Source: Allomyces arbusculus
Lineage: Eukaryota > Blastocladiomycota > Blastocladiomycetes > Blastocladiales > Blastocladiaceae
Direction of reading: 5' to 3'
DNA length: 64,000 nucleotides
Assembly (NCBI GenBank): GCA_027604705.1
Contig: JADHYV010000038.1
Span: 153,750-217,749, forward strand
The notes beneath the pieces were generated by a model, which did not search any database, was not told the origin of the DNA, and saw only the letters and a program-made list of their open reading frames with translations. Position numbers and translations under genes: made by a program. How positions within the stretch are numbered: position 1 is the stretch's first letter; every line of letters starts with the position of its first letter. Shown here piece after piece: positions 5,976-55,000 of this stretch.

Positions 5976-7018
5976 ATGGTCGCTCACAAGTACAAGGTTG
6001 GTCAGTATCGACCCGACCTTCTCAACCCGAATTTGGCCCGGCTGCAAGCAACGACACGACGGCGACGGCCGGCTCGGCGCTCAGCTCCTCCTCCTCGACG
6101 CGCCTGGCTGCTCAATGCTCTGCGACTGCGCGTGACCGTGCGCTCGGCAACGTTTGCATCACCGAGACCGCGTCGTTACGGGCAGCGAGGACTCGATAAG
6201 GAGCACCGTGTCGTCGTCGTCGTGCAAATGCTGCTGCTGCTGCTCGCCCATCCATTTTCCATGACTGCCTCGCAAAACTGACGCTCCTCCATGCTCTTCC
6301 CCAACCAACAGCCGACATCACGCTCGCCGACTTCGGCCGCAAGGAGATTGAGCTCGCCGAGAACGAGATGCCCGGTCTCATGGCCCTCCGCGCCAAGTAC
6401 GGCGCGGCCAAGCCGCTGGCCGGTGCGCGTATCGCCGGTTGCCTGCACATGACGATCCAGACGGCCGTTCTGATCGAGACGCTTGTCGTGCTCGGCGCCG
6501 AGGTCACCTGGTCGTCGTGCAACATCTTCTCGACGCAGGACCACGCCGCGGCCGCGATTGCCAAGGCCGGGATCCCCGTGTTCGCGTGGAAGGGCGAGAC
6601 CGACGACGAGTACATCTGGTGCATTGAGCAGCAGCTGACGGCGTTCAAGGACGGCAAGCCGCTCAACATGATCCTCGACGACGGCGGCGACTTGACGACG
6701 CTCGTGCACGACAAGTACCCGCAGTTCCTCGCGGGCATCAAGGGTCTCTCCGAGGAGACGACGACGGGCGTACACCACCTCTACCGCATGGTCAAGGAGG
6801 GCAAGCTCAAGGTTCCCGCCATCAACGTCAACGACTCGGTGACCAAGTCCAAGTTCGATAACCTCTACGGGTGCCGCGAGTCGCTGATTGATGGCATCAA
6901 GCGCGCGACCGACGTCATGATCGCCGGTAAGGTCGCGATTGTTGCCGGGTACGGTGATGTCGGCAAGGGTTGCGCGGCCGCGCTCAAGGGTATGGGCGCG
7001 CGTGTGATTGTCACGGAA

Positions 7019-7056
<38 letters not shown>

Positions 7057-7591
7057 TTACGAGGTGACGACCATGGAGGCGGCCGTGCAGGAGGGCAACA
7101 TCTTCGTGACGACGACGGGCTGCCGCGACATCATCACGGGCGAGCACTTTGTGCAGATGAAGGACGACGCGATCGTGTGCAACATTGGCCACTTTGACAT
7201 CGAGATCGATGTTGCCTGGCTCAAGGCCAACGCCAAGCAGCACGTCAACATCAAGCCGCAGGTCGACCGGTTCACGATGGCCTCGGGCCGCCACATCATC
7301 CTGCTTGCCGAGGGCCGTCTCGTCAACTTGGGGTGCGCGACGGGCCACCCGTCGTTTGTCATGTCCAACTCGTTCTCGAACCAGGTGCTCGCCCAGATCG
7401 CCCTCTGGAAGGCGGCCCCCGGCGAGTTCACGATTGGCGTGCACATGCTCCCCAAGAAGCTCGACGAGGAGGTTGCGCGCGCGCATCTCGACAAGCTTGG
7501 CGTCAAGCTCGCCACGCTCTCCAAGAAGCAGTCGGAGTACCTCGGCATTGCCGTCGAGGGCCCCTACAAGCCCGAGCACTACCGCTACTGA
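5976..7591 (+). CDS. SAH1: S-adenosylhomocysteine hydrolase
   Basis: Two exons: 5976-6000 and 6312-7591, with a 311-nt intron that is long for this locus. The product is 434 residues, the usual length. It hydrolyses S-adenosylhomocysteine to adenosine and homocysteine in the cytosol, relieving product inhibition of methyltransferases. The joined N-terminus reads [20 protein letters not shown], the expected family start, which fixes the splice. Visible motifs: [13 protein letters not shown] and [16 protein letters not shown] (substrate site), the NAD-binding loop [32 protein letters not shown], and the family C-terminus KPEHYRY. There is no insertion or truncation. Codon use is strongly C/G-ending, consistent with high expression. 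Confidence 0.98.
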
Positions 7592-37643: not shown

Positions 37644-38633
37644 TCACAAGATGCGCGCGGGCACATAGTAAGTGAGCACCGATTCGGACTGATTCGGTGC
37701 GGATTGTCCTCCCCTGCCCACATCGTCGGGGAGAGAATCGGGCGCGTCGAGGTGCGCGTAGACGACAGCACATACCTGATGGTGAATTGCGAGAACGACC
37801 TGCGTCGGGTGCGCGACGTGGCATTGCATGACGCGGCTGAAGTCGGCCGTGGCCACTGTAACTTCGGCCAGCTGGTCGGCGCGAAGCGCGGTTGCGAGGG
37901 GCGCGGGACCGGCGTCTTGTCCTCGTTCTACACGATTCCATCGCGTCTCGTCAGTTCGTGCAACAGAGCAGGCGCAGAGCAAAGACAACGCACCATCGAC
38001 CACGCGCGCATGCTCCAGTCGTCCAATCACTGTTTCAAACTGCACGTTGGGCGTCTCGGCACGGATTCGCAGCTCACCGATCCCGTGTCGGCTGGCCAGG
38101 GTCAGGTGCGTCGCGCCCATCGCCTTGATCCGGTCGATCATAGCGCGTAGCGTCGCGAGCGGAGGCAGGGCCACATACACGTCCGACCAAGGCATACGCG
38201 GCTCACGCAACTCATCAATTGCACTTCGCTTCAAAACGCGAATCGGCACATCATGGTGCACGACCACAGGCCGCGCGCCCGCCTTAGACTCTGCGACCAT
38301 GGTCATGGCCAAGACGGGCGCCGGATTGCACGCGAGTTTCACCGTGACCGCATGCGCCGTCGCCATACTCTTGACGGCGCGATGGAGTAATGCCGTGGGC
38401 ACCGATAGCGCAATCTCTGAGTTGGGGTGCGACGATTCCAGCAGCATTTCCTCGAAGAGCAGGTCGGCGGGCGCGTGCGACCAGACCTGCGTTGCGTCGG
38501 CCGCATCCTTGACGACCAGGTAGAATCGGTGTCGCGAAAAGCGCAGCGTGCAGTGCCGCGCGCCGAGCTTGTCGAGTGGAGCCACGAGCTTAGCGAGCGT
38601 CTTGGGCGAGATGACCTTAAATTTCATGCGCAT
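37644..38633 (-). CDS. HUS1: DNA-damage checkpoint clamp subunit Hus1
   Basis: Most likely two exons in transcription order: 37994-38633 and 37644-37927. They are separated by a 66-nt intron (GTGCGT...CTGAC...GTGTAG) that is a multiple of three and stop-free, so the frame also stays open without splicing. Spliced length is 307 residues, unspliced 329. The spliced form gives EHARVVDERGQDAGPAPLAT, a better fit to the short loop found here in Hus1. Family features: start M(R)MKFKVISPKTLAKLV, LRFSRHRFYLVVKD, and C-terminal LTYYVPARIL. Hus1 joins Rad9 and Rad1 in the 9-1-1 PCNA-like clamp that activates ATR/Mec1. Two start codons lie six bases apart; the second gives the family-standard MKF start. 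Confidence 0.93.
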   Translation of the reverse strand: MRMKFKVISPKTLAKLVAPLDKLGARHCTLRFSRHRFYLVVKDAADATQVWSHAPADLLFEEMLLESSHPNSEIALSVPTALLHRAVKSMATAHAVTVKLACNPAPVLAMTMVAESKAGARPVVVHHDVPIRVLKRSAIDELREPRMPWSDVYVALPPLATLRAMIDRIKAMGATHLTLASRHGIGELRIRAETPNVQFETVIGRLEHARVVDGALSLLCACSVARTDETRWNRVERGQDAGPAPLATALRADQLAEVTVATADFSRVMQCHVAHPTQVVLAIHHQVCAVVYAHLDAPDSLPDDVGRGGQSAPNQSESVLTYYVPARIL

Positions 38634-38918: not shown

Positions 38919-41098
38919 ATGGATCGCCGTGCAACTTCCAGCAATAAATCCTTGAGCGCCTCCGCGTCGGCCCAGTCCGAATGGGACGCCCTCAAGGCCA
39001 TGATGGCCTCGGGGTTCGGCAAGAGCTCTGGCTCAAGTCGCAGCCAAGCCAACGTAAGCAAGGCAACAGGGTCAACCAAAGACGACGACAGCGACGACGA
39101 GGATGAACGGGGTGCACCGAAAAGGTCATTTTCGCGAGGTGGTGGTCGTGATGACCGGCCAGCGGGATCCATTCCAAGCTCAAGCAAGGCTCCAGCACGG
39201 CAAGCACCCGACGGAAAGGACCAAGACGACAATGGTGATGACGACGACGATTTTGTCGGCCCGCCGCCACCACCAGCCGACGCTGCCGCTGCCGGTTCGG
39301 ACGACGACGATCTCGACGACAACGAGACCGACGACAACCCGCTCCCGCTCACCAACGAGGTGCACATGCAAGGCCACTCGCGTGCCGTCACAGCGCTTGA
39401 TGTGGATCCGTCGGGCGCGCGGTGCATCACCGGTTCGCTCGACTACACGATTCGCATGTACGACTTTGCCGCCATGGACGCAAACCTGCGCGCGTTCAAG
39501 TCGCTCGAGCCCGTGCCCGGCCACCAGATCCTCGACGTGCAGTGGTCCACGACGGGCGACTCGTTCTTGCTGGCGCCGCACGCGCCGCAGGTGCGGCTGT
39601 ATGATCGTGATGGAGCAATGCGGTACGGATTTTGTGTTCATTGCCTGTGAGGGAAACGAACACTCATTATTACCCCGGCGGTCGGTAGTCACGAGTATGC
39701 GAAGGGTGACATGTACTTGCGCGACTTGCGCAACACGGATGGCCACACGGGTACCGTCACGGCAGTGCGGTGGCGGCCCGGTCACAAGCAGACGTTTGCG
39801 ACAAGTTCATTCGACTCGACCGTTCGGTGCGTATCCTGATGCTCTGCAAGCTTCACCACCCGTCCTCAGTTCATTCTGACCATTGTTGACAACAGGATCT
39901 GGGACGTGGAGCGCCCGCGCAAGCAAGCGCAGGTGATCGTGTTCAAGCACGGCACTGGTGCGCGCGGGATCGCGGCCAAGTCGCCTGTGTCGACGCTTGC
40001 CTACTCGCGCGACGGCAACTATCTTGCCGGTGGTGCCGAAGATGGGAGGTGCGCTGGCCGAATCCGACTCTGCCAGTACATTTCCCGCATCGCTCACCCG
40101 CCTGACCACCGTCCCCCACAGCATCCGCATCTGGAAAGCACAAGGCCCCTACTCGACCGCGGCCTTCCAGCATCACACCGCACACGCATCCGGCAATCCC
40201 ATCACCTCGCTCGTCTTCGCGTGGGACCAGCACACGCTCCTGTCGCGGTCCATGGACGAGACCGTCAAGCTCTGGGACCTGCGCAGCTTCAAACACCCGA
40301 TCCATACGCATTCGATCCCGACCGTCTACCCGACGCAGAACGCCGTCTTCTCGCCCGACGACCAGCGCATCCTTGCCGGGTGGGCGGTCCCGCCGTCGCG
40401 CAAGCAGCCGGCAGCCACCGACGACGCCCATGGCGAATTGCGCGTGCTCGACCGCACCTCGTTTGATCTGGTCACAGCCGTCAAGGTCGGGGGTGGCGGC
40501 GCCGTTCGCGTCGCGTGGCACCCGAAACTGCATCAAATTTTGGTCGGCACGGCGCGCGGCGCGACGGCCGTCATGTACCGCCCGGGATACTCGCAGCGTG
40601 GCGTCACGCTGTGTGTGAGTCGCGCACCGCGCGTGCGTACGGTCGAGGACGATGTGGCCGATTTGGTCATGGAGAAGGCGAGCGAGGTCGCGGTCGATTG
40701 GAAGACGGTCGGGAAGCGGCAGCGCGACGGCAAGGCTAAACCGATGCCAGGTACGATGTAGTTTTTCGTATCAGTGCATCCCCACCGTGCCAGCGGACTC
40801 ACCAGGATCTCCTGCTTTTTTTCTTTCTTCATACCCAGAGCGCCAAAAGCGCACGCCGACCATGGGCGGCGGGTCTCTGTTCGACGCCAAGAATGTGGTC
40901 GACCTGCGCGCCGAGGACCCGCGCGAGGCCATTTTGAAGTACGCCGACGTCGCGGCCAAGAACCCGTACTGGGTCGCGCCGGCCTACAGCACGACGCAAC
41001 CCAAGGCCGTGCTCGCCGACAAGGTGGTCGAGTCGGACGAGGAGGAGCGCGTGATTGACGCCGAAGACCGACAGCGCGCCAAGCGGCGGCGAATGTAG
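38919..41098 (+). CDS. WDR70-type WD40 protein
   Basis: Five exons: 38919-39622, 39689-39826, 39896-40048, 40122-40750 and 40839-41098. The product is 627 residues. After a disordered Ser/Asp-rich head (DDDSDDEDERGAPKRSFS, DDDDDFVGPPPPP) comes a WD40 propeller: NEVHMQGHSRAVTALDVDPS, TGSLDYTIRMYDFAAMD, FATSSFDSTVRIWDVERP, LSRSMDETVKLWDLRSF. The C-terminal tail DPREAILKYADVAAKNPYWV then APAYSTTQPK is diagnostic of WDR70 and lies in the last exon, which proves that the apparent stop after exon 4 is intronic. WDR70 works with CRL4/DDB1 in double-strand-break resection (H2B ubiquitylation) in human and fission yeast. Confidence 0.95.
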
Positions 41099-41501: not shown

Positions 41502-42777
41502 CTAGCCAACTGTCCCATCCGAATGATCGTTTGAGCCAGAATCGGTCGCCCCTTCAGACGTGCGTACAACGAGCACCCCAAGATCCTCGAGCATAAAAGG
41601 CCCATCCAGACGGCTCGAGCGAGGCATATAACGAGTGCTAGGCGGCACGATAACCCTCGACTCGCGAACCCCATTCGGCCCACTCCACTTCATGTCGAGC
41701 AGATACTGGCACGCGAAGTGGTGAGCGGTGCTTAACAGCCCATACTCGCTCCACGCCCGGTGAACCGGTTTTTCGACGTATTTTGCCGGATACCGGAATA
41801 CTTCTGATTCGTCCGGGTGAGCCGCACAAATGTCGACGATATACGTGAATACCGTGACCGGCATCTTTTCGACCATACGGACACGCTGTTCCTCGTCCAT
41901 GACCGGCAAATAAACACCGCGCGCATTTGGCTTGACGCGGCCGTATCCGTAGTGCGCAGCGTGATAGTCGCGATACTGGTCCAGGGTCACGATGCTGTCA
42001 TGTGTTGTTGTGGTGCGCCGGAAGCAAACCAGACTCTGCTACTTCCTCTCAATGTATTCTTCTCGGCGGTACTCGCGTCCTTATATCCCACGACAGGCAG
42101 AGCATGCAACCAACTCAGGGTGGAGAATGGAGAGGACGCGATGGAGAATAACACAGAATGGGAATGGTGGAGAGATGATGGGGATGACAGGATGGGAGAC
42201 GATAGAGACGTGGCAGAGCGTGAGCGTCGGTGTCCACCGGTTCGGTCAGGTTCCCGAGGTGCCGGAGCAGAGGGGTGGCGCCGGCGCCGAGGGAAGGTTT
42301 GCGGGTCGCGTCTCGCACGTCCCGCACTGGTTGCGGAGTGTCCACGTGGAGCACACGCACCAACATCATGCACTGGGCCGATACCGATATGCCCGAGACG
42401 GCTGTCAACATCGTTCAGGAAATGTATCCGGGCGACGAAATGTGGAGGCAAGCTGGCACCAATCGAGCCGGGCGGTAAGCGCGCGGCAAACTCCTTGTCT
42501 GTGAGCGGGCCTTCGTTCCCGAAGTCGCAAACGTGCAAAATGAATTCAAACGCTGGGCGGCGGGCAAAACTTGACCTCGGCATAATTCGTGCGCTTGTGA
42601 ATGCGGTAAATGAATACTGGTCGGCTGGCCAGCGAACTTGGCCCGGTGGACCGGGTTGGAGATGGTGCGCGAAAAGTCGAGTGGAAAGACGCCAGTGACA
42701 AGGTCGCTTGCAGGTGTTTCAGCAGGACACAGCAATTCCTTGGGGTTGAAAATGGATGGGCGAGCGTTCGTGTTCAT
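41502..42777 (-). pseudogene. broken paralogue A of the 49515-50459 family
   Basis: The N-terminal half starts intact at 42777 (FNPKELLCPAETPASDLVTG) and stays in frame to FAGQPTSIH. One extra T near 42617 then shifts the frame, and a loss of about two bases near 42553 shifts it again. The shifted frames still read RIHKRTNYAEVKFCPPP and ILHVCDFGNEGPLTDKEF. About 350-390 nt without family similarity follow (roughly 42000-42400), either an insertion or an intron. The C-terminal half (41502-41990) is intact: YRDYHAAHYG, LPVMDEEQRVRMVEKMPVTV, LLDMKWSGP, FMLEDLGVLVVRT. As read, no single frame spans it, so I call it a pseudogene. Sequencing error at two sites plus an intron would rescue it. Confidence 0.7.
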
Positions 42778-43038
42778 ACTGGTGCAAATTTGAGGAGGTA
42801 GCGTTACATTAACCTCTGCGGTCTATTGAGATTTGCGGGTCCGGCTTTAAGACAGCCAGCACGGCCTTGAGAAGTGGGTCTTGGACGGAGGTGGGCCCAG
42901 TGAGTCCTGACATGTAGTCGCGCAAAAAAAAAAGTGTGACCAATTTCTGCCAACCGACAGCTCGCATATCTAAACTGCTTGTTCTCTTTCAACGTAAACA
43001 ACGTCATACCACTCCTTTCCACCTTCTCCACACGAAAT

Positions 43039-43431
43039 TCAGCGGGCCAAATGTTTGTACGCTCCACATGCTGTCAACAGCATGGTGCGCTGAAAATGCC
43101 GTAACAGGTTGCGACCGCACGACCTGAGCGATTGCAGGTTGTAAATTTCCTCGTCTAAAAGCGGGCCGTCATAGCCCAGGTCACGAACGTGTAATGTAAA
43201 TGAGATTTTACCGGGCGTTGGCTCAAGAACGACCTCGGCAGAGTTGGTAACGCGGTGGATGTGGTGGCAAATGATGGTCGGTGGCGCGAACTTGGCCCGG
43301 TCTTCTGGGTTCGGAATCGCGCACGCAAAATCGATGCGGAAACTGACAGCGACAAATTCGGACATGGGCGTGTCGGGCGGGAACAGGGACTCCTTGTGAT
43401 TGAAGACAGACTGGCAAGCTGGGCTGTCCAT
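43039..43431 (-). CDS. truncated paralogue B of the 49515-50459 family
   Basis: Open frame of 130 residues from MDSPACQSVFNHKESLFPPD. It covers only the family's N-terminal half: FRIDFACAIPNPEDRAKFA, VTNSAEVVLEPTPGKISFTL, HVRDLGYDGPLLDEE. It ends about where the full-length member continues into its C-terminal half. I found no trace of that half between this copy and paralogue A. It could be a functional short form or a 3'-deleted relic. There is no internal stop or frameshift, unlike its neighbours. Confidence 0.55.
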   Translation of the reverse strand: MDSPACQSVFNHKESLFPPDTPMSEFVAVSFRIDFACAIPNPEDRAKFAPPTIICHHIHRVTNSAEVVLEPTPGKISFTLHVRDLGYDGPLLDEEIYNLQSLRSCGRNLLRHFQRTMLLTACGAYKHLAR

Positions 43432-43789
43432 TGTGCGAGTAAGGTCTGGTGTGAGCAACAAGAGGGAGAAGTCAATAGGACGAGTGGAACACCTACTGCT
43501 TGCTGAAATCATGTGAATGGTCACTTTGATACCGCCTTGTGTTGCGGTCTAGTTCAAACAATGCCAGTGTCTAAAGGATCCAACAATTCCAAAGGCATCA
43601 AGACACAATTTATCTATATCCATCACTTCCCCACTATTTTTCGAACCGGCATTACACTCAATCGTCCCTCTACGTTTATTACAAGTGAAGTCGGCTCAAA
43701 GATTGAGCTCACATCATCATCATCACTGTCCTCCTCTTCTTCTTCTGACTGAAACATCCACCCACGTATCCTCATTATCCGACTCGGAA
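43432..43789. other. spacer between paralogues B and C
   Basis: Relatively AT-rich, with a TCATCATCATC/TCTTCTTCTTC run near 43715-43748. No gene seen. Confidence 0.5.
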
Positions 43790-44529
43790 TCAACGCCGTT
43801 TGTACGCGATGCCAGCAAATCGTTCCATAGTCACACGAAAGACGCGGTCCCTAGTGTCCTTGAGCATGAACCCAACTGCGTCCTCAGTGTAATCCGTGAG
43901 CCCCGTTTCTGCGGTAGATGGCACGAATTTGCGCCGCAGATCAAACCCGTCTATCGGCCCACTCCAGCGCAAATTGAGCAGGCACTTGCACGCAAGCTTG
44001 TGCACGACCGAGCCAAACTGCTCTTGGTCCATGACGGTTTTGGTCACGACACGCTCATCATAGACGATATCGCCATACCGTGCCAGGCGAAAGTGGTTGT
44101 ATTCTTGCGAGGACATGGACTTGATGCAGTCCGGCTTGGGCAGACAGTCGAACCGAGAGGTAGCGTCGTTCAGTCATTGGTGCCGAATCATGATAGGCTG
44201 TGGCATATCCCACCCGTGCGATTTAGGCGGCTGCTTGTCATAGATTTCCTCGTCTGAGAGTGGGCCATCGTAGCCGAGGTCGCGAATGTGCAGCGTAAAC
44301 GAGACTTTGCCTGGTGGAGGCTCAAAGACGACCTCGGCAAAGTTGGTGACGCGGTGGATGCGGTAGCAAACGATGGTCGGCTGGGTTGCAAACTTGACCC
44401 GGTGCTCTGGGTTGAGAATGGCGTGTGTGAAACTGATGAAATTGGCCAGCAACAAAGTCGGCCATAGGCATGCCGGGCGCGAAAAGCGGCTCCTTGGGGG
44501 TAGAAGACAGATTGGCGAACTGCGAACAT
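43790..44529 (-). pseudogene. broken paralogue C of the 49515-50459 family
   Basis: Starts MFAVRQSVFYPQ, then needs a shift of one base to read KEPLFAPGMPMADFVAGQF and another to read FISFTHAILNPEHRVKFA. The frame then runs through YRIHRVTNFAEVVFEPPPGK and TLHIRDLGYDGPLSDEE to an in-frame TGA at 44174-44176 (RHQ-stop). Beyond the stop, the same frame continues SRFDCLPKPDCIKSMSSQEY, aligning residue for residue with the intact member. A deletion of about 55 codons then joins VMDQEQF directly to VVHKLACKCLLNLRWSGP. Two frameshifts, one nonsense codon and an internal deletion make this a pseudogene. Confidence 0.8.
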
Positions 44530-44917
44530 GGTGTGGACGTCAAGGTGGGTCCAGCAAATCAATAGGGCAGAGAGGAGAGCAGATGAAGTGGTAGGGAGTG
44601 CATTCTTCTTTCAATTATGAGGCTGATCGCCTTCGGCTTCCGTTCACACAAATTGCACTGCCTCTGCCTACAGAACGGACTTTACCCACTTGCATTCGCG
44701 GCGAAAGCGAACATGTGCTCCGGCCTGTCGTGACGGATATGCTCAGAACATGCCGACTGTTTCGTGTGATGTGGCATCAGCAAGTGCGTTGCCAAATTCA
44801 AGACGGAGCTAGATGTGGAGCAAGCACGCGAGTGCATGTATTCAAAAGTCGAGCGATTGTTCTTGCTCCCCTAGAAACGTCAACGCAACAGAATGAGCAA
44901 CAGGACACAACGAATCC
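44530..44917. other. intergenic, no gene seen
   Basis: About 390 bp between paralogue C and the PRI1 stop codon. Confidence 0.5.
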
Positions 44918-46353
44918 TTAACGAGTTGCAAGTGGCGTACGTCGCAGTTTCCTCCGCACCTCGAGGTCCAGGCCGTCGACAAACGACTTGAAGTACTGCA
45001 GGTGCGGCTTGAGACTCGTCTTAGCCCAATCTACATGCATGCGCGGTCAGCGAACAAAGAAGAGCCGCTCAAATCGATTAAAAAAAGCGCACCCGGTGCA
45101 CTTTCCGCCTCGACATCCATGGCCTCGTTGAGCTCGCGCACGAGCCCAGCGACAGTCGGCACGTCGAGCGGGTCGAATTCGGTGCACCGTGCCGGGTCAA
45201 TTGGCACACAAACGCGGCCCGTCTTCGGGTGCACGCAAAACGGCGCCTTGAGCAAGTGGTTGATGTGCGTCGTGACGTTGGCGTCGAGCCGCGGGTACGT
45301 GTACTGCACGATAATTTCGCGCGGCAACTGCGCTACCTCGGATTTCCTGGCAGATGAGCTCGCGTACGATCCGAGCGACTTGACGAGAATGTTCCACTTG
45401 GCATTGGCAAGCTCGATCGGATCCCGTTTCGACTTCGGGTCCTCGTACTTCTTGTCCAGCGTGGTCCATGCGGACCGCACGCGACTGCGCACCGTGTCGT
45501 CCGGGAGTAGCGCGAGCAGTCGGTCCCTGGTCGCCGCGTGTTCAAGGATCTGCTGGTCACCGAGCACGACGCGTTGGAACGCGTCATGCAAAACGTGGTC
45601 GAGCGCATCCTGCAAAAATGGGTGTAGCGGCGCGTTCGCGGGACCAAGCCAGACCTTCTTTTCTTGGTTCTCACCGCCGCGCACGACCTCAAGGTACCGC
45701 ACGAGCGCCTGGCGCGCGTCGTTGCCGAGCTTGCGCGCCTCCTCGTCGCACACCCAGCAGTGCACACCGCGACGGCCCGAGTAGACCCAGAGCAGGTGCG
45801 TGAACCCAAAATTGTCGCGCAGGGCGCGGTCGAGCAACTGGATGGCGATCGTCATAAACGACCAGCACTTGGTGCAGACGTCGGCGCCCTGGCAGCAGGT
45901 GCGAATGTCGTCGTAGTCGGTCATGTCGATATCGAGCACGAGTTCCTTTTCCTTGGGCACAAAGGCGCCGGGCAGAAGCGTCTTCTTTTGGCGCGGCTTG
46001 ACTGAGTAGACAGCGCCAATGTCGATCTTGACGGGCCGCTTGGCGAGCACTTCGTTGCGCAGTTCGTCGGGCGAGTCGAAGGATTGGAAGCGCACGTAAA
46101 TGTCATTGTCGAGCGTGAAGGAGAACTCGCGGCGCGCGAGCGTGTCCGGGTTCGCATAGCTGAGCCAGCGGGCAAAGTCTTTGAACGGGAAGAAACGGCG
46201 ATAGAACGTGTCGAGCAGCATCGCGGCGGGCAGGTCGCCCGGCACTGCTGGCATCGATGTCGTCGTCGGGGCCGGCACGGGTGCTGGTGCGGGCGCCTTC
46301 GCCTTCTCTTCGCTCGTGGCTGTGGTCGGTTCTGTCGATGCTGAGTTGTCCAT
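44918..46353 (-). CDS. PRI1: DNA primase small (catalytic) subunit
   Basis: Two exons in transcription order: 45093-46353 and 44918-45030 (62-nt intron). The product is 457 residues. It makes RNA primers in the polymerase-alpha/primase complex. After a Pro/Ala-rich head of ~45 residues, the domain starts at LLDTFYRRFFPFKDFARWLS. Motifs: catalytic carboxylates in LVLDIDMTDYDDIRTCC; zinc-type cysteines CCQGADVCTKCW; nucleotide-binding SGRRGVHCWVCDEEAR; and YPRLDANVTTHINHLLKAPF with VHPKTGRVCVP. The second exon adds the family C-terminus DWAKTSLKPHLQYFKSFVDG. Without the splice the protein would run into an unrelated tail after residue 420. Confidence 0.97.
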
Positions 46354-46672
46354 GGTTGCTCAATTTGAGTGCTAGCGCGCGCGACTGTCCTGGCCGTGTT
46401 CCGGGTCACTTCTTGCACCCGTCTGGTCCACGCTGTCGTCGGCGAGCGGTCGAATGGTCGTCGCGCCGTCGTCGTCGACAGCGGTGCTGTGGAGGTCTCG
46501 CCTGAAGGCTGACTCGACTGGTTGATCACTGCAACGAGCCAGGCAAGCGGCAACCAGCCACCTGATGGTAACAACAAGACTGCCTCCAACGTGTCGGCGA
46601 TCACGACGAACTCGCTCAGCCAGAGTGATCAGCACCCTTCGATACGACCACACCCGCAAGACTCAAGCAACG
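46354..46672. promoter_or_regulatory. divergent promoter of PRI1 and the ataxin-10 homologue
   Basis: 319 bp between start codons. No ACGCGT (MCB) site is present, though one might be expected for an S-phase gene. GCGCGCG occurs near 46376. Confidence 0.45.
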
Positions 46673-48284
46673 ATGACCGAACAATTCATCGACGACGTGG
46701 CCGACTTGCACGCTGCCGCGTTGCTTGCTCCGCGCGACCGTGACTGGGAAGAGATCGAGGCCATTCTCATTGACCTTGTCAGCGATCTCGCCAAGTCACT
46801 CAAGTGCCGGTATTGAACCAACTCGTTGTTCGGCCAAATCGGCCGCTCCTTACGCTCCTTGTGGTCGCGACTGATCGATGATGGCCGTCGGCAAAGCGGC
46901 ATCGTGTAGAGCTTGTGCGGCAAGCTCGGAATCTCAATTTTGGGCCGCGCTCGACCTGATTCGTGACGACGCTGGTGCTCCCGCATCAGTCCATCTACTG
47001 GTACTCCGCGCCGTGCGCAATGCGTGTGTCGAGAACCCGACCGCGCAGACTCGGGCCCTCGATCACGGTTGGGCCGATCATTTGCTCGCGAAACTGGACG
47101 CGGTTGTGCGCGGCCAGAGCCAAGGTATCGATGCGCAGGAATTGTGCCCGACAGCCATCGAGGCTGTCGTCAACTTGAGCGCCGATAATCCCGAGGCCGC
47201 GCGCCGATTGCTGGCTGCTGGTGACGACCGTGCCGGCTGGCTGCTGGCTCTCCTGAGCGCACCGGACGAAGCGATTGTGAAAAAGGCGCTCGTCCTCGTG
47301 CTCGTGCTCGTCGTGACGCATGCGCTGCCGTTTACCGAGGCCGACGCGACCTGTTCCGGTGCTCGAGTCCTCGAGCGTGTGTTCTTGGTCGCTACAGCCA
47401 AACCCGGTGTCGCGATCGACGACGACGTCCAAACCGAAGTGCAATCGCCGTACCCAGACGACAGCGACCGTGCACCTGCATCGCCGTACCTTTCCTACGT
47501 GTTTGCAATCGTGCGCGCGCTCGTCATGGACCCACCGCACTTTGTTGCCGTGTTCCGCTGTGTCGCGCCATTGCCGACCGTTCAGGTCGCGCTGCTCGAC
47601 CATGTCCTACTCGTCGCGCAAGAATGCACGCCGCCAACGTCCCCGTTCCCGCCGGCCGTGCTCGACTTCTTGATTACTGAGTTTGCGCAACACGTCGCGA
47701 CCATCACGGCGACCGACGATTCAGCCGACTCGGACGGTGATGCCATCGACAACGCTCTCCCCGTCCCCGTCCTCCTCGCGCAGCTGCACGTTCTCGAGTA
47801 CCTGACACTGCACCACCAGCCCATGCCCTTGCTCGACGCCGTGGTCGCCCTCCTTGGGTACCTCCACACGCACCAGCCGCGCACGACCCTTCGCGACCGG
47901 TCCCCCAACGAAATCACGACCCCCACGGCCGCCGCCGCCGCCGCCGACGCCGGCCCACTGCACGGGATTTTCCACACCAAGAAGACGCTGCTCTTGATGC
48001 TCGCGCAACTCGTCTACTGCAACCGCCCAATGCAGGACCGCGTGCGTGAACTCGATGCGGTCGCGCTTGTGCTTGCGCAGTGCAATTACGACGACCGGCA
48101 CCCGTACCTGCGCGAATACGGCGTCTATGCACTGCGTAATGTGTTGGAGGGAAATGAAGCGAACCAGGCGGTCGTCGACGGACTGCGCGCAATTGATTTG
48201 GCGCCGGGCGTGACTGACGCCTTGAAAGATATGAAGGTGGATCCGGAGAAAGTGCGCGCGCAAGTGATGCGTAAGCAGGGGTGA
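46673..48284 (+). CDS. ataxin-10 domain protein
   Basis: Two exons: 46673-46803 and 46910-48284. The product is 501 residues. Its donor (CAA|GTGCCG) is weaker than others here, but the join restores phase and gives SLKACAASSESQFWAALDLI. It is an armadillo-like helical protein with the C-terminal ataxin-10 domain: TKKTLLLMLAQLVYCNRPMQ, then VRELDAVALVLAQCNYDDRH, then YLREYGVYALRNVLEGNEAN. The budding-yeast relative is Ctr86. In animals ataxin-10 has roles in cytokinesis and neuron survival; in fungi it is poorly characterised. A middle armadillo-like part (PTAIEAVVNLSADNPEAARR) and a low-complexity Asp/Ala linker separate the repeats. Confidence 0.9.
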
Positions 48285-48434
48285 ATGGAATCGATCCGTT
48301 ATTCGTTGCTTGCAACCCACGCCAAGCTGGAAAATGTATCAATACAGCACGACCAGTACAAAATATACACGGCCTTTCTCTCCAACTCCTGCCCCCCCCC
48401 ACCCTCTTCTTTGCCATCAGCACGCACGGCAAAC

Positions 48435-49058
48435 TCAGAACGTTGCCGCATGCGCCTTGGGCAACTGCCGCGCCAAGTACGTCTGCGCCCACACGTCCTG
48501 GCGGCGCGCCGCGTCCATGACCGCTTTCTCGTCCAACATCGCCGCAAACCACGGTGCCTTGTCGCTGTCCGTGACCGGAAACGTCTTGCTGAGCTCGAGC
48601 ACGCGGTACCACGCCTCCTCGGTCCCGACCCCGCCCCACTTCTTCAACGCAACCGCCATACTCGCGAGTGTCGGGAACTGCGCATTCAACGCCAACTCGA
48701 TCCGCCGATGCACGACCGCACGCATTGCGTCCTCTTCGCTTGACGAGACGTAGACGTTGACGGGTCGCGGGAATCCGTGCACGAGGTAGACGACACTTAG
48801 GGCGTCGCGGTGCGTCTCGGTCACACCCGTCTCGTCGTTCTCGTCGTCGTCTTCGGAGGAGGCTGGTGCGATCACGTCGAGAACAGACCGCACGGCGTTC
48901 GAGTCGTCGTGCACGATCGCCACGTCCACGTCGGAGACGGCGGAACCGAGATCCGGCAAACCGCCGGACGCGAGATGCATTCGGTCGGCGAGTTGAGGGT
49001 CGATGGCATGCACGAAGTGCTGGAATTGGTGGAAGAGCGCCGGCTGCGAAATGGTCAT
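48435..49058 (-). CDS. small nucleotidyltransferase-like protein
   Basis: Intronless, 207 residues from MTISQPALFHQFQHFV. The central motif GGLPDLGSAVSDVDVAIVHD has the shape of a nucleotidyltransferase-fold signature: a G-S-rich loop, then D-x-D. A hydrophobic strand with charged partners follows (ALSVVYLVHGFPRPVNVYVS), then a helical C-terminal half with VALKKWGGVGTEEAWYRVLE. The pattern resembles minimal NTase or GrpB-type proteins, but I cannot name the family or a substrate. An upstream in-frame extension to 49169 is Ser/Arg-rich and probably untranslated. The gene converges on the ataxin-10 homologue. Confidence 0.7.
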   Translation of the reverse strand: MTISQPALFHQFQHFVHAIDPQLADRMHLASGGLPDLGSAVSDVDVAIVHDDSNAVRSVLDVIAPASSEDDDENDETGVTETHRDALSVVYLVHGFPRPVNVYVSSSEEDAMRAVVHRRIELALNAQFPTLASMAVALKKWGGVGTEEAWYRVLELSKTFPVTDSDKAPWFAAMLDEKAVMDAARRQDVWAQTYLARQLPKAHAATF

Positions 49059-49514
49059 GATGCTTGCAGGTTGGCGGGTCGATACTTGAGGACGAGCTTG
49101 GTGGCGGGGCGAGGAGCGCGGGCTGGAGATGAGACCGCTGAAGAAGACGAATACGAGCGGCGAGCGCAAGATGCTGGAGGAGAGAGAGAGGGAGAAGCGG
49201 CGCTGGCAGCCCCGTTCTCGAAAGAACTACGTGCGCAAACACGCCCCAGCAAAAACGACCCACATGGGCCCTCGTTGTGGCGAACCTTGCAACTGCCTGG
49301 CCTTTTGTTCCTCACCATCAAACGAAGCACGACCAATCTGTCCACCCGGCGAACCACAGATCCACGCAGTACCTTGTCGGTGCTCGATGTCGTTACGGAA
49401 TTTGGCAGCTGGCGTGCGCTCAAATAGTGGTTTGGGATGAATGACTGAGTCTGGCAAGTCTGTCAACGCATCGCTGGACGGACCAGTTCATTCAATCCAC
49501 AAGATCAAATTCAA
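49059..49514. other. intergenic, no gene seen
   Basis: About 455 bp between the NTase-like start and the stop of the intact paralogue. GAGAGAGAGAGGGAGA near 49178 is a short GA repeat. Confidence 0.5.
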
Positions 49515-50459
49515 TCAATCATCATGACACGCCACGTCTTCCTTCTCCTCCTCCTCCGCTGCCGCATCTCCGCTCGAGCCGGCCGCGTGCCTGCCATCGT
49601 CATCATCGTCCGTGCGCACGGCGAACCGCCCAAGGTCTTCCATCATGTACGCGCCATCAAACTTGCTCTGCGGCGGACAGTACTCAATCCTCGGTTCCAC
49701 GACGCTCACAGGCGGCCGAATCCGGTCGGGCCCGCACCACCGCAAGTCGAGCAGCCACCTGCACGCCAGCTGGTGCACGTAACCCAGAAACCCAAACGGC
49801 CAATGCGTCAGCGAATGATCGGGATACTGCACATGCTCGAGAGCATACTTGAGCACCGCTGCGCCGTCTGGAATTTCGGTGCAAATGGCAAGCATGTAGT
49901 CAAAGACTGTGACAAGAATCGTTTCAATCATGCGCACGTGCTGGTCGAGGTCCATAACCGGCAGCAAGATGCCACGCGCATCGTGCTTGACGGAACCGTA
50001 TTGCAATGCACGGACACGTTTGTACTCGGCCAAGTCGTCCAGGTGTTGGGTCGTTTCTGGTGGGGAAGCGTCAAACCGAGCATAATGGTCGCAGATAAAT
50101 GCACTGCGCAGCTTGAGGTGCGTGGGCAGATTGCGACCAACCGAATGGGGTGGCTCGCGTGCAGCAAATTCCTCGTCTGCAATGGACCCGTCATAACCAA
50201 GTTCGCGAATGTGCAGCGTGTACTCAATATCGCCGGGCGGTGGACAGAAAATGACCTCGACGAAATTGGTCCGCCAGTGAATGCGGTAGTGCACGCTGGT
50301 GGGCTGGTCGGCGAACTCTGCTCGACGGTCACGGTCGGAAATGGCACGGGCAAAGTCGATATTAAAGTATCCAGTGACAAGGTCGGCGGCAGGCGTGTTG
50401 GGCGAGAACAGCAGGTCCTTTGGGTTGAACCCGGACGGGTAGACTTCGGTGGTGGCCAT
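49515..50459 (-). CDS. intact member of an unrecognised two-part family (paralogue D)
   Basis: Single frame, 314 residues from MATTEVYPSGFNPKDLLFSP. The N-terminal half (~1-125) has FNIDFARAISDRDRRAEFAD, SVHYRIHWRTNFVEVIFCPP, EYTLHIRELGYDGSIADEEF. The C-terminal half (~140-285) has RGILLPVMDLDQHVRMIETI, then LVTVFDYMLAICTEIPDG, YVHQLACRWLLDLRWCGP and DGAYMMEDLGRFAVRT. An acidic tail (AAAEEEEKEDVACHDD) ends it. There is no signal peptide or membrane segment. Three relatives lie at 41.5-44.5 kb, all minus strand; blocks such as LGYDG-x(3)-DEE and LLD-x-[RK]W-x-GP are shared among copies. I know no family with this pattern. That decayed copies still align across both halves argues that the coding frame is real. 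Confidence 0.85.
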   Translation of the reverse strand: MATTEVYPSGFNPKDLLFSPNTPAADLVTGYFNIDFARAISDRDRRAEFADQPTSVHYRIHWRTNFVEVIFCPPPGDIEYTLHIRELGYDGSIADEEFAAREPPHSVGRNLPTHLKLRSAFICDHYARFDASPPETTQHLDDLAEYKRVRALQYGSVKHDARGILLPVMDLDQHVRMIETILVTVFDYMLAICTEIPDGAAVLKYALEHVQYPDHSLTHWPFGFLGYVHQLACRWLLDLRWCGPDRIRPPVSVVEPRIEYCPPQSKFDGAYMMEDLGRFAVRTDDDDDGRHAAGSSGDAAAEEEEKEDVACHDD

Positions 50460-52059: not shown

Positions 52060-55000
52060 TCACATCTCTTCCGACGCGACCGTATCCATCGTTGTCGCGC
52101 GCGATCTCACCGCGACAATCCTCCGCCTACGCTCACCCGCATCCGCCTCATCCATGTCCACCTCATCCTCATCCCGCCCCTGCCCACACACCACCCGCGG
52201 CGGTGTCCGATCAAAATCGTATGCGAGAACCCACGCGACTGTCGCAACCATCATCCCCAACACGATCCACCCGCGCCAGCCGAGCACAAACAAGTGCACC
52301 GCAACCAGCACCCACGCGATAAACTTGCGATCGGCCACGAACCGCATCGTCATCGGGTGCGTGGCCAAGAAATCGAGAACCGCCAAGAGCGCGTCCATGG
52401 GGACCAACTTCGCGCGATGCGTCCACGCGTCCACGATTCCCGCCGAATTGGGCACGGCGGCCTCCATCTCTGCGCGCTTGCGTCGCACCGCGCGGCGGCC
52501 CTTGATCACCGCCGCAATTAGCGCGTCTGTCACCCAATACGCCGCCTCTACAACCGCCGGCACTTCGGACGTGAAATACAAGTGGCGGTCCACCATCCCC
52601 GGCGCGAGTCGTGGGACTGCCGGCGCCTTGCGCATCCCGTGCTTCAACTGGATCCGCGCCGACGGGGCCAGGTGCCACTTGTCCGCGGTCATGTCCTGCA
52701 CATACGCCGGCAACGAGGCGGCCACGGGCTCGTCCGTGGCCGCAGCGAGCCATGCGCGCGCAGTCGGTGCCGGTGCGGCCGCGTCAGCGTCGATCTGCGC
52801 ACAGATAGCCGCATACTCGTCGTCGGGAATGTCGAAGGTCGCACAGAGCGCCGACGCGATCCGGTCGTAGTAGATACGCTCTTCGTCGAGTTGAGCTGGG
52901 GAGATCCGGGGGGTCGTCCGGCCGCCGCCGGGGCGAACGGTCAGGGCGCCGGCGGACGTGGCCGCGAGCGTGCGCGCGTACCCGGAGATGACCGACGTGA
53001 CGCGGCCTGTGAGTTGGCCCAGCGGCGACGCCGTATCCGCATTCGCTGCCGCGTCTCGCGCCGGTGTCGTCGGCGCCGTGGCCGCAGCAGCCGCACCGCC
53101 GCCGCCATCCCGGTGCAGCAACCACCGGCGATCACTCTCCGCGCGGACCACGAGTTGCAACAACATCCGTGCGGACCCATCCGGCCTTGCCATTTCCTGC
53201 GCGAGGACCGGCTCGTACTCGCTCGCCCCCACCCTCCCCTCAAGTCGCGCAATCGTATCCCCGAGCACCTGCACGAGCTGCACAGTACTCGCGGGCACCC
53301 CCGCCCCACCACCATGCAGGCGCCGAGACCGTTCGACCAGGACCCGTTCAAACGACCGCACCCAGATCAGGGCGTCGGCGACGGTCGCGCCCGACGAGGT
53401 GGTAGTGACGTACTCCCCCATCCGTCGCGCTGCATCGAGTTGCGCGTTGCTCCGCCACAGCGCATCGACGCGTTGATTCCCGAGCGCGAGATAGGACGTC
53501 TTCCTCTCGCGTCGCCGCGCCACCGCCGGCTGGACCGGTGCCGGAGCGCGCTGCACCGGCTGCTTGCTCATGGGGGCAAACACGTCGAGCACTGCGTACA
53601 GAATCCCGGCCTCCGAAGCGGTCCGGACATACGTCGCGCCGGCGCCCTGCACAGGGGACCGTTCGCGTACACCGAGATCGAACGTGCATGCGCGGTCGAG
53701 GAACGCAACGAGGACGTGCGAGTATACCAAGAAGTTTTCGGCCACGAATTGGTGGTGCCGTGCGGTCAGGTCGTCGCCGATCGTGACGAGCGACGTGCCG
53801 CGTGCGGTCGGGGTGATCCACTTGAGCCAGATTTGCACGAGGTGGTAGAGCGATCGGTCGGCGACGGCGTAGTGGCGCATGCCCATACGCAAGAACCGGT
53901 AGATGGTTGGGCTGAGCAGCTGGTACGCGTACCTGTTGGTGCGGAGAAGAGGGAGTGAGCTGCGGGGGGGTCTAGAACTGGTTGAGGGGAGTGAGGAAGA
54001 CGTACTTGAGGGCAATATGCGACATCTTTTCGGGCGACACGTCGCCGCTGAACCGGGACAGGTTCATGGTCAAGAAATGCGCGGGTACCGACGTGTCGAG
54101 CACCGACAGTAGGTCGATGCTCGAGACGTGTGCGACGAGTTCTTGTAGGCCCTTGAGCACGTCGACGGGCACAGCGTGGTACGACTACGCGAACAGCACA
54201 CCGTCAGTCGACTGATCGTGCCCCCCACCAACGTGCAAATCAACATGGGGCATACCAGCATTGCAAAATCCAATCCACGCGGCTGCCCCGCGACCACCGG
54301 CACCGGCGGGACATACGCGTTCTGGTTCAGCCAGCACTCGACCAAACACCCGACAAAGAACTGCGACGCTGCGAGCGACTCGGCGACCAGTCCACTCGCA
54401 CGCGACGGCGCACGATCATAATCGCCAGCACCGCCCGGGACCAACGACACGCGACCAAACACGTTGGCCGCAAAGTAACCGATCGCCGGGCGACTCGCAT
54501 CCGCAGGACCCGCCGTATCGGCCGCAAACCGGCCACGAACGGCGCTCGTCACATAACTGGCCATATCTGCCAAGTGCCGCAGCGGTGATGCGGTCGCTGC
54601 ATCGTTATCGGCTGCGGACGGTGCCGATTCGGCGTGGTGCGCGGCAGCAGCGGAAGCGGAAGCGGCAGCCGCTGCAGCAGCACGGCGTGCCTTGGCCGAC
54701 GGCGGTGCAGTCGACGTGGTCGTGGACGTGGGCAAAAAGTAGCTCAGGTAGGCGCGCAGGATGCGCATGTACCACGTCGACACGCGCATGTCCGGACGCG
54801 CTCCTGCGACGGCCGCCGATGCAGCCGCGGATTGCTTAGACGACGCGCTGCCGAACGGCAAGTACGACGCGGGCGACGTGGGCGTATCGTTCGAAATCGA
54901 CGGCGCGCGCGCGCCGGCTTTCTTGCCATTCGCAAGTGCCCAGGCAAAATAGAACGTGAAAAACTCGAACATGTTGAACGTGACGGTCGGGAGGGCCGTG

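Follow-up and report, generated by a model that had tools for sequence, protein, structure and literature searches.

An Allomyces-restricted protein family with open and decaying copies in Allomyces arbusculus

The closest described relatives of the gene family considered here, which is represented by four minus-strand copies in a 64,000-nucleotide window of the Allomyces arbusculus genome (assembly GCA_027604705.1, contig JADHYV010000038.1, here C38, positions 153,750 to 217,749), are proteins of the same genus. A. arbusculus, a saprotroph, belongs to the Blastocladiomycota, and Allomyces is a zoospore-forming, flagellated, early-diverging fungus. The A. javanicus proteins GGF32_005729 (P0002), GGF32_007228 (P0003) and GGF32_007739 (P0004) are hypothetical proteins with no assigned function and share a subfamily (A) with the intact gene of the window (49k); P0003 is about 20 residues shorter in the middle than the window protein, and the acidic tail of P0004 is longer. 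A second subfamily (B) contains A. arbusculus GGF31_004306 (P0005), which shares about 22% identity with the window protein and lacks the acidic tail, and two shorter A. javanicus proteins, GGF32_001773 (P0006, 218 residues) and GGF32_001772 (P0007, 189 residues). Young gene families that gain and lose members are a kind of case already known and fairly ordinary; the wtf genes of Schizosaccharomyces show rapid turnover, non-allelic conversion and transposon-aided spread (PMC6526906).

Our results support a lineage-restricted family with turnover of copies as the best-fitting reading. The fuller proposal, that an undescribed, Allomyces-only gene family encodes a soluble intracellular product binding a ligand or partner, and that its copies arise without their flanks and then decay, has in our judgement slightly better than an even chance of being correct as a whole.

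Distribution and relatives of the family

A first-pass annotation of the window, made from the sequence alone, had proposed searching the whole genome for further copies, and such a search (25.9 Mb in 197 contigs, queried with five family members and one A. javanicus protein) shows that the family exceeds the window. At least 17 places were found, on C38 and nine other contigs, five with open frames (49k and the copies designated C4, C29, C40 and C44a) and 12 broken or truncated. None of the five open frames requires an intron, and the C29 member is 100% identical to P0005. Subfamilies A and B are deeply separated, with 20–22% identity between them, and can be aligned over the greater part of their length. 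A number of copies are close to contig ends; three consecutive exact units of TTAGGG, the sole telomere repeat tried, are absent from the assembly. A decayed subfamily A relic was also seen beside the open C4 copy, on the opposite strand (6858–7482, plus strand, of the fetched region L009, C4:1-10000).

The annotation had described 49k as a clean 314-residue gene, and this is borne out by an open 314-codon frame, which extends open upstream to 50771 and whose chosen ATG agrees with the starts of P0002 and P0003. The encoded protein is 85% identical to P0002, 80% to P0003 and 41% to P0004, over 96–98% of its length. In a genome search with this protein the second half of the 42k copy matched with an expect value (E) of 2.2e-34, the 44k copy with 1.5e-31, the 43k copy with 1.1e-23 and the start of 42k with 7.2e-13, so that the relatedness of the four stretches in the window is well beyond chance.

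Word-based searches of 5.8 billion proteins, whose coverage of Blastocladiomycota was not checked, returned relatives from Allomyces only, and no relative was found among viral contigs (IMG/VR) or prokaryote genomes. At least 18 of the 20 members scanned had no Pfam match, the sole hits being RHH_4 (E 0.084, the best) and MCP-like_PDC_1 (0.19) in one member each, and searches of PDB sequences gave nothing better than E 0.67. A clear hit to a described family was thus absent from the Pfam, PDB and protein searches, in agreement with the initial statement that the shared pattern matches no known family. Nor is the family described in the title or abstract opening of any of the Allomyces, Blastocladiomycota and wtf papers listed, which does not imply its absence from print.

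Relatives in A. javanicus lie near three of the A. arbusculus lineages, with 85% identity to 49k, 71% to C4 and 64–73% to C44a. Trees support the groups C4 + 44k + P0004 and C44a + P0006 + P0007 (100/99), whereas the C4 + 44k pair is set apart from P0004 with support of only 83/79, the branching order of P0006 and P0007 with C44a is not resolved, and 8 of 12 and 5 of 11 inner branches in the two trees are unsupported; 49k is placed with P0002 and P0003 by identity and not by the tree. The family alignment (A4) contains neither the stop-bearing pieces (C13, C91, C44b) nor the middle piece of C50; also excluded are the relics at C4:6.9-7.5 kb and C13:418 kb and, for 42k, its N-terminal pieces. 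Two A. javanicus proteins correspond to one open A. arbusculus copy in two cases, P0002 and P0003 to 49k, and P0006 and P0007, which bear consecutive tags and are 48% identical (a figure that includes long gaps), to C44a; duplication in A. javanicus or loss in A. arbusculus is possible. The annotation had read the locus as birth-and-death turnover of a lineage-restricted family. The restriction to Allomyces holds in the searches made, and the 12 broken copies are good evidence for death; the evidence for recent birth is weaker, since most inner branches of the trees lack firm support.

The predicted protein

Two models, one for each subfamily (predicted template modelling scores 0.56 and 0.65), agree on four strands and four long helices, whose positions match in alignment A4. 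The "two-part" protein of the annotation is so far borne out as a strand-rich first half followed by a helical second half, in models of low-to-moderate confidence. Four residues are conserved across both subfamilies, P0005–P0007 included: His-61 (15 of 15 rows), His-114 (12 of 13), Gln-173 (14 of 15) and Glu-179 (12 of 14). A poorly aligned row (C1, 1452-1712) was retained, which lowers some of these counts. The product is probably a soluble intracellular protein of mixed fold, neither a transposase nor a membrane protein, with a variable tail that is acidic in subfamily A; most likely it binds a ligand or a partner, and the four conserved residues would be part of the binding surface.

In our view it is unlikely that the protein belongs to a known fold or enzyme family from which it has diverged too far for sequence profiles to detect. 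The fold considered was that of the p300/CBP and Rtt109 acetyltransferases (KAT11). All of its Z-scores fall far under the 7–8 that is typical of models without a clear match, none of its chains is among the best 30 rows for the better (subfamily B) model, and no histone acetyltransferase profile appears in the Pfam matches of the 20 members.

No N-terminal hydrophobic run was found in any of the eight proteins measured, a sample outside which P0006 and P0007 lie. The highest 19-residue hydropathy was 0.81–1.27 in five of them, none of which has a stretch above 1.3, and only 1.6–1.76 in the other three. These values bear on whether the family consists of selfish killer genes like the spore killers or wtf, in which drivers and suppressors would stand beside dead copies. 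The demography is alike, in that there are few intact and many dead copies, a long terminal repeat (LTR) remnant and coding sequence possibly spread by non-allelic conversion. However, wtf proteins are multi-pass membrane proteins, and the Allomyces proteins are not predicted to be multi-pass. The comparison holds for demography alone, that is, for turnover with non-allelic conversion and a transposon link as outlined for wtf (PMC6526906), and we regard a killer family as very improbable.

Copying, constraint and decay

The route by which copies arise is best seen in the closest pair, C4 and 44k. Their similarity starts at about codon four and lasts almost to the end of the frame, but in the adjoining 400 bp none was detected, either upstream (z 2.5) or downstream (z -0.1). 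As a control for power, flanks were simulated from the upstream C4 flank at two indel rates, with 20 trials each. They were detected in 20/20 trials at both rates for distances of 0.23 and 0.42, in 16/20 and 9/20 at 0.6, and in 6/20 and 2/20 at 0.8. Synonymous distances (dS) between C4 and 44k are 0.23 (87 codons) and 0.42 (103 codons), and the copied unit is therefore the coding sequence alone, unless change in the flanks was about twice as fast as at silent sites. In a comparison of nine copies with one another (36 pairs, 400 bp on each side), only two pairs exceeded z 4: 44k and 43k, where the match is the neighbouring copy itself, and 44k and C29, where a 29-column downstream match is taken as chance.

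Copying without flanks would be expected from retroposition, from ectopic conversion acting on an older paralog, or from capture of sequence from an RNA source. The GC content at third codon positions (GC3) of the family, 0.62–0.72 against 0.72–0.81 in five further open frames in the window, fits all three alike, and no poly-A tract or target duplication was seen around the copies, though no systematic search was made. New copies would, on the reading we prefer, be made by retroposition or ectopic gene conversion, with some local duplication besides, as is suggested by the shared direction of the four window copies within 9 kb. We also entertain, as a speculative and rather improbable proposal, that the coding sequence of this Allomyces-only protein of unmatched fold has repeatedly entered the genome by way of an RNA intermediate, which might be host mRNA or come from an unknown RNA virus; the resulting copies would be intronless and have no flanks in common, and a few would have been kept as working genes.

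A related alternative is repeated capture from an RNA virus of Allomyces, in which the constraint would have acted within the virus and most captured copies would go on to decay. It would account for the common coding sequence and the lack of detectable common flanks in the closest pair, for the intronless state of the five open copies and for their family's lower GC3, and Allomyces does carry mycoviruses, with virus-like particles reported in A. arbusculus (PMC7482067). No viral relative was found among the 5.8 billion proteins or in IMG/VR, however, where RNA mycoviruses are perhaps thinly covered; the four window copies look like local duplication, and the A. javanicus relatives near three A. 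arbusculus lineages fit inheritance. We consider viral capture improbable.

Dispersal could also be explained if the protein were encoded by, or were the cargo of, a transposable element, since copies occur on nine contigs besides C38 and one of them carries an LTR-like repeat. But no common flanks or ends were detected between copies, the members match no transposase, integrase or polymerase family, and the repeat is an insertion with its own target duplication in a single copy, not found in the fetched 3–10 kb around the other family copies. This makes an element origin distinctly unlikely.

The rates of change between copies, a comparison suggested with the annotation, were obtained for 27 pairs of stretches (at least 50 codons and at least 30% identity), 22 of which have dS >1 and are thus little informative. 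For C4 and 44k the nonsynonymous-to-synonymous ratio (dN/dS) is 0.24 and 0.27 in the two stretches. The other pairs with dS of at most 1 are C4 and 43k (dS 0.98, ratio 0.29), C4 and the start of 42k (0.75, 0.44), and the ends of 44k and 42k (0.92, 0.79; 59 codons, both copies dead). The ratio of about 0.25 in the closest pair points to purifying selection on the copies while alive.

Decay is directly visible in the window. The annotation had reported frameshifts, a nonsense codon, a deletion and an absent second half at 41.5–44.5 kb, all of which could be located. In 44k there is a frame change near 44437, a TGA at 44174–44176, a loss of about 50 codons near 44017 and, judged by eye, a further frame change in the tail; 42k has frame changes at about 42610 and about 42552. 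A 363-bp repeat separating the halves of 42k had gone unrecognised. The motif pattern said to be shared by the four genes holds in outline and is not strict: 43k reads HIHRVTNSAEV, 42k has FGNEGPLTDKE in place of LGYDGxxxDEE, 44k has KTVMDQEQ, LLNLRWSGP and LKDTR, and even the intact 49k reads MEDLG at the LEDLG position.

The repeat in 42k has exact TG...CA ends and an exact 5-bp target duplication, and fits a solo LTR on these features. It occurs, whole or in part, in at least 11 further places at 77–96% identity (contigs C100, C78, C1, C69, C55, C6, C21 and C9). Among eight aligned copies (the fetched copy L063 was left out), the 5-bp duplication is exact in four (window, L057, L058, L060), matches at 4 of 5 bases in one (L059) and was not seen in three (L056, L061 and L062, the last two by eye). 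Introns do occur in fungal genes, and the broken copies might be intact spliced genes misread as pseudogenes. The gap in 42k, however, is occupied by a dispersed repeat flanked by a 5-bp target duplication, which shows this copy to be a genuine pseudogene rather than a gene read with its intron; 43k lacks its second half, 44k has an in-frame TGA and has lost about 50 codons, and the five open members require no intron. We give a misreading of this sort almost no credence. It is likely that the redundancy of single copies lets them decay, by frame changes, by deletion and by the insertion of elements.

Several observations weigh against the reading of a constrained, soluble, decaying family. 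The models disagree in their low-confidence middle, with a strand around His-114 in one and a helix in the other, and the binding surface is for this reason a guess. The three higher hydropathy maxima fall in a single predicted helix that also contains acidic residues, and lie close to the threshold commonly used for membrane segments. Aligned with P0004, the open C4 frame meets a TGA about 20 residues short of the tail end, and similarity to P0004 continues beyond the stop; this copy may be shortened. Two of the 12 broken places depend on weak matches (C13:418 kb and C13:453 kb; 1.9e-4 and 7.9e-4), and assembly errors could account for some of the frame changes, most of all for the lone one in C84. 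Finally, constraint is read mainly from one pair, the second member of which is now dead.

The family offers a small, clean example of the rise and decay of new protein families in a flagellated fungus of an early-diverging lineage, where copies that are open, recently dead or split by an element occur together. Copying limited to the coding sequence, if true, would bear on how such fungi make new genes and is the part most deserving of follow-up. The wider weight is modest for now.

Features of the window and location of family members

Locations of the family copies are collected in Table 1, together with the genes that neighbour them in the window. Two of these neighbours have sub-threshold Pfam-type matches, and the WD40 repeat protein spans two open frames, probably with an intron.

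Table 1. Family members, the inserted repeat and neighbouring genes (positions without a contig name are those of the window)
Feature	Position	Strand	Remarks
Intact subfamily A gene, 49k	49515..50459	-	314 aa; open frame; intron not required; acidic tail
Broken copy, 44k	43711..44529	-	Nearest relative the C4 copy; frame change, TGA, missing codons, tail frame change
Truncated copy, 43k	43039..43431	-	N-terminal half only; ends ahead of second half
Broken copy, 42k	41502..42777	-	Two frame changes; halves separated by mobile-element-like insert
Solo-LTR-like repeat, 363 bp, TGTTGG...ACAACA	42003..42365	-	Inside 42k; dispersed in genome
Target-site duplication CATGA (minus-strand letters), one side	42366..42370	.	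Adjoins repeat
Target-site duplication CATGA (minus-strand letters), other side	41998..42002	.	Adjoins repeat
Subfamily A outside the window	C4:5302-6228; C84:29.7-30.7 kb; C4:6.9-7.5 kb		The last a relic
Subfamily B	C29; C40; C44:14.5-15.7 kb (C44a); C44:18.3-18.9 kb (C44b); C50; C1:252 kb; C13:443 kb; C13:453 kb; C91		
Relic without subfamily placement	C13:418 kb		
Hus1-like checkpoint protein	37644-38633	-	Pfam PF04005, E 1.4e-50
WD40 repeat protein	38919-40761	+	
DNA primase small subunit gene	45031-46353	-	Pfam PF01896, E 1.2e-51
Ataxin-10-type protein	46878-48284	+	Pfam PF09759, E 1.9e-23
Protein with DUF4269 match	48435-49169	-	Sub-threshold, E 8.2e-4
Match to mitochondrial-associated sphingomyelin phosphodiesterase	52060-54015	-	Sub-threshold, E 4e-4

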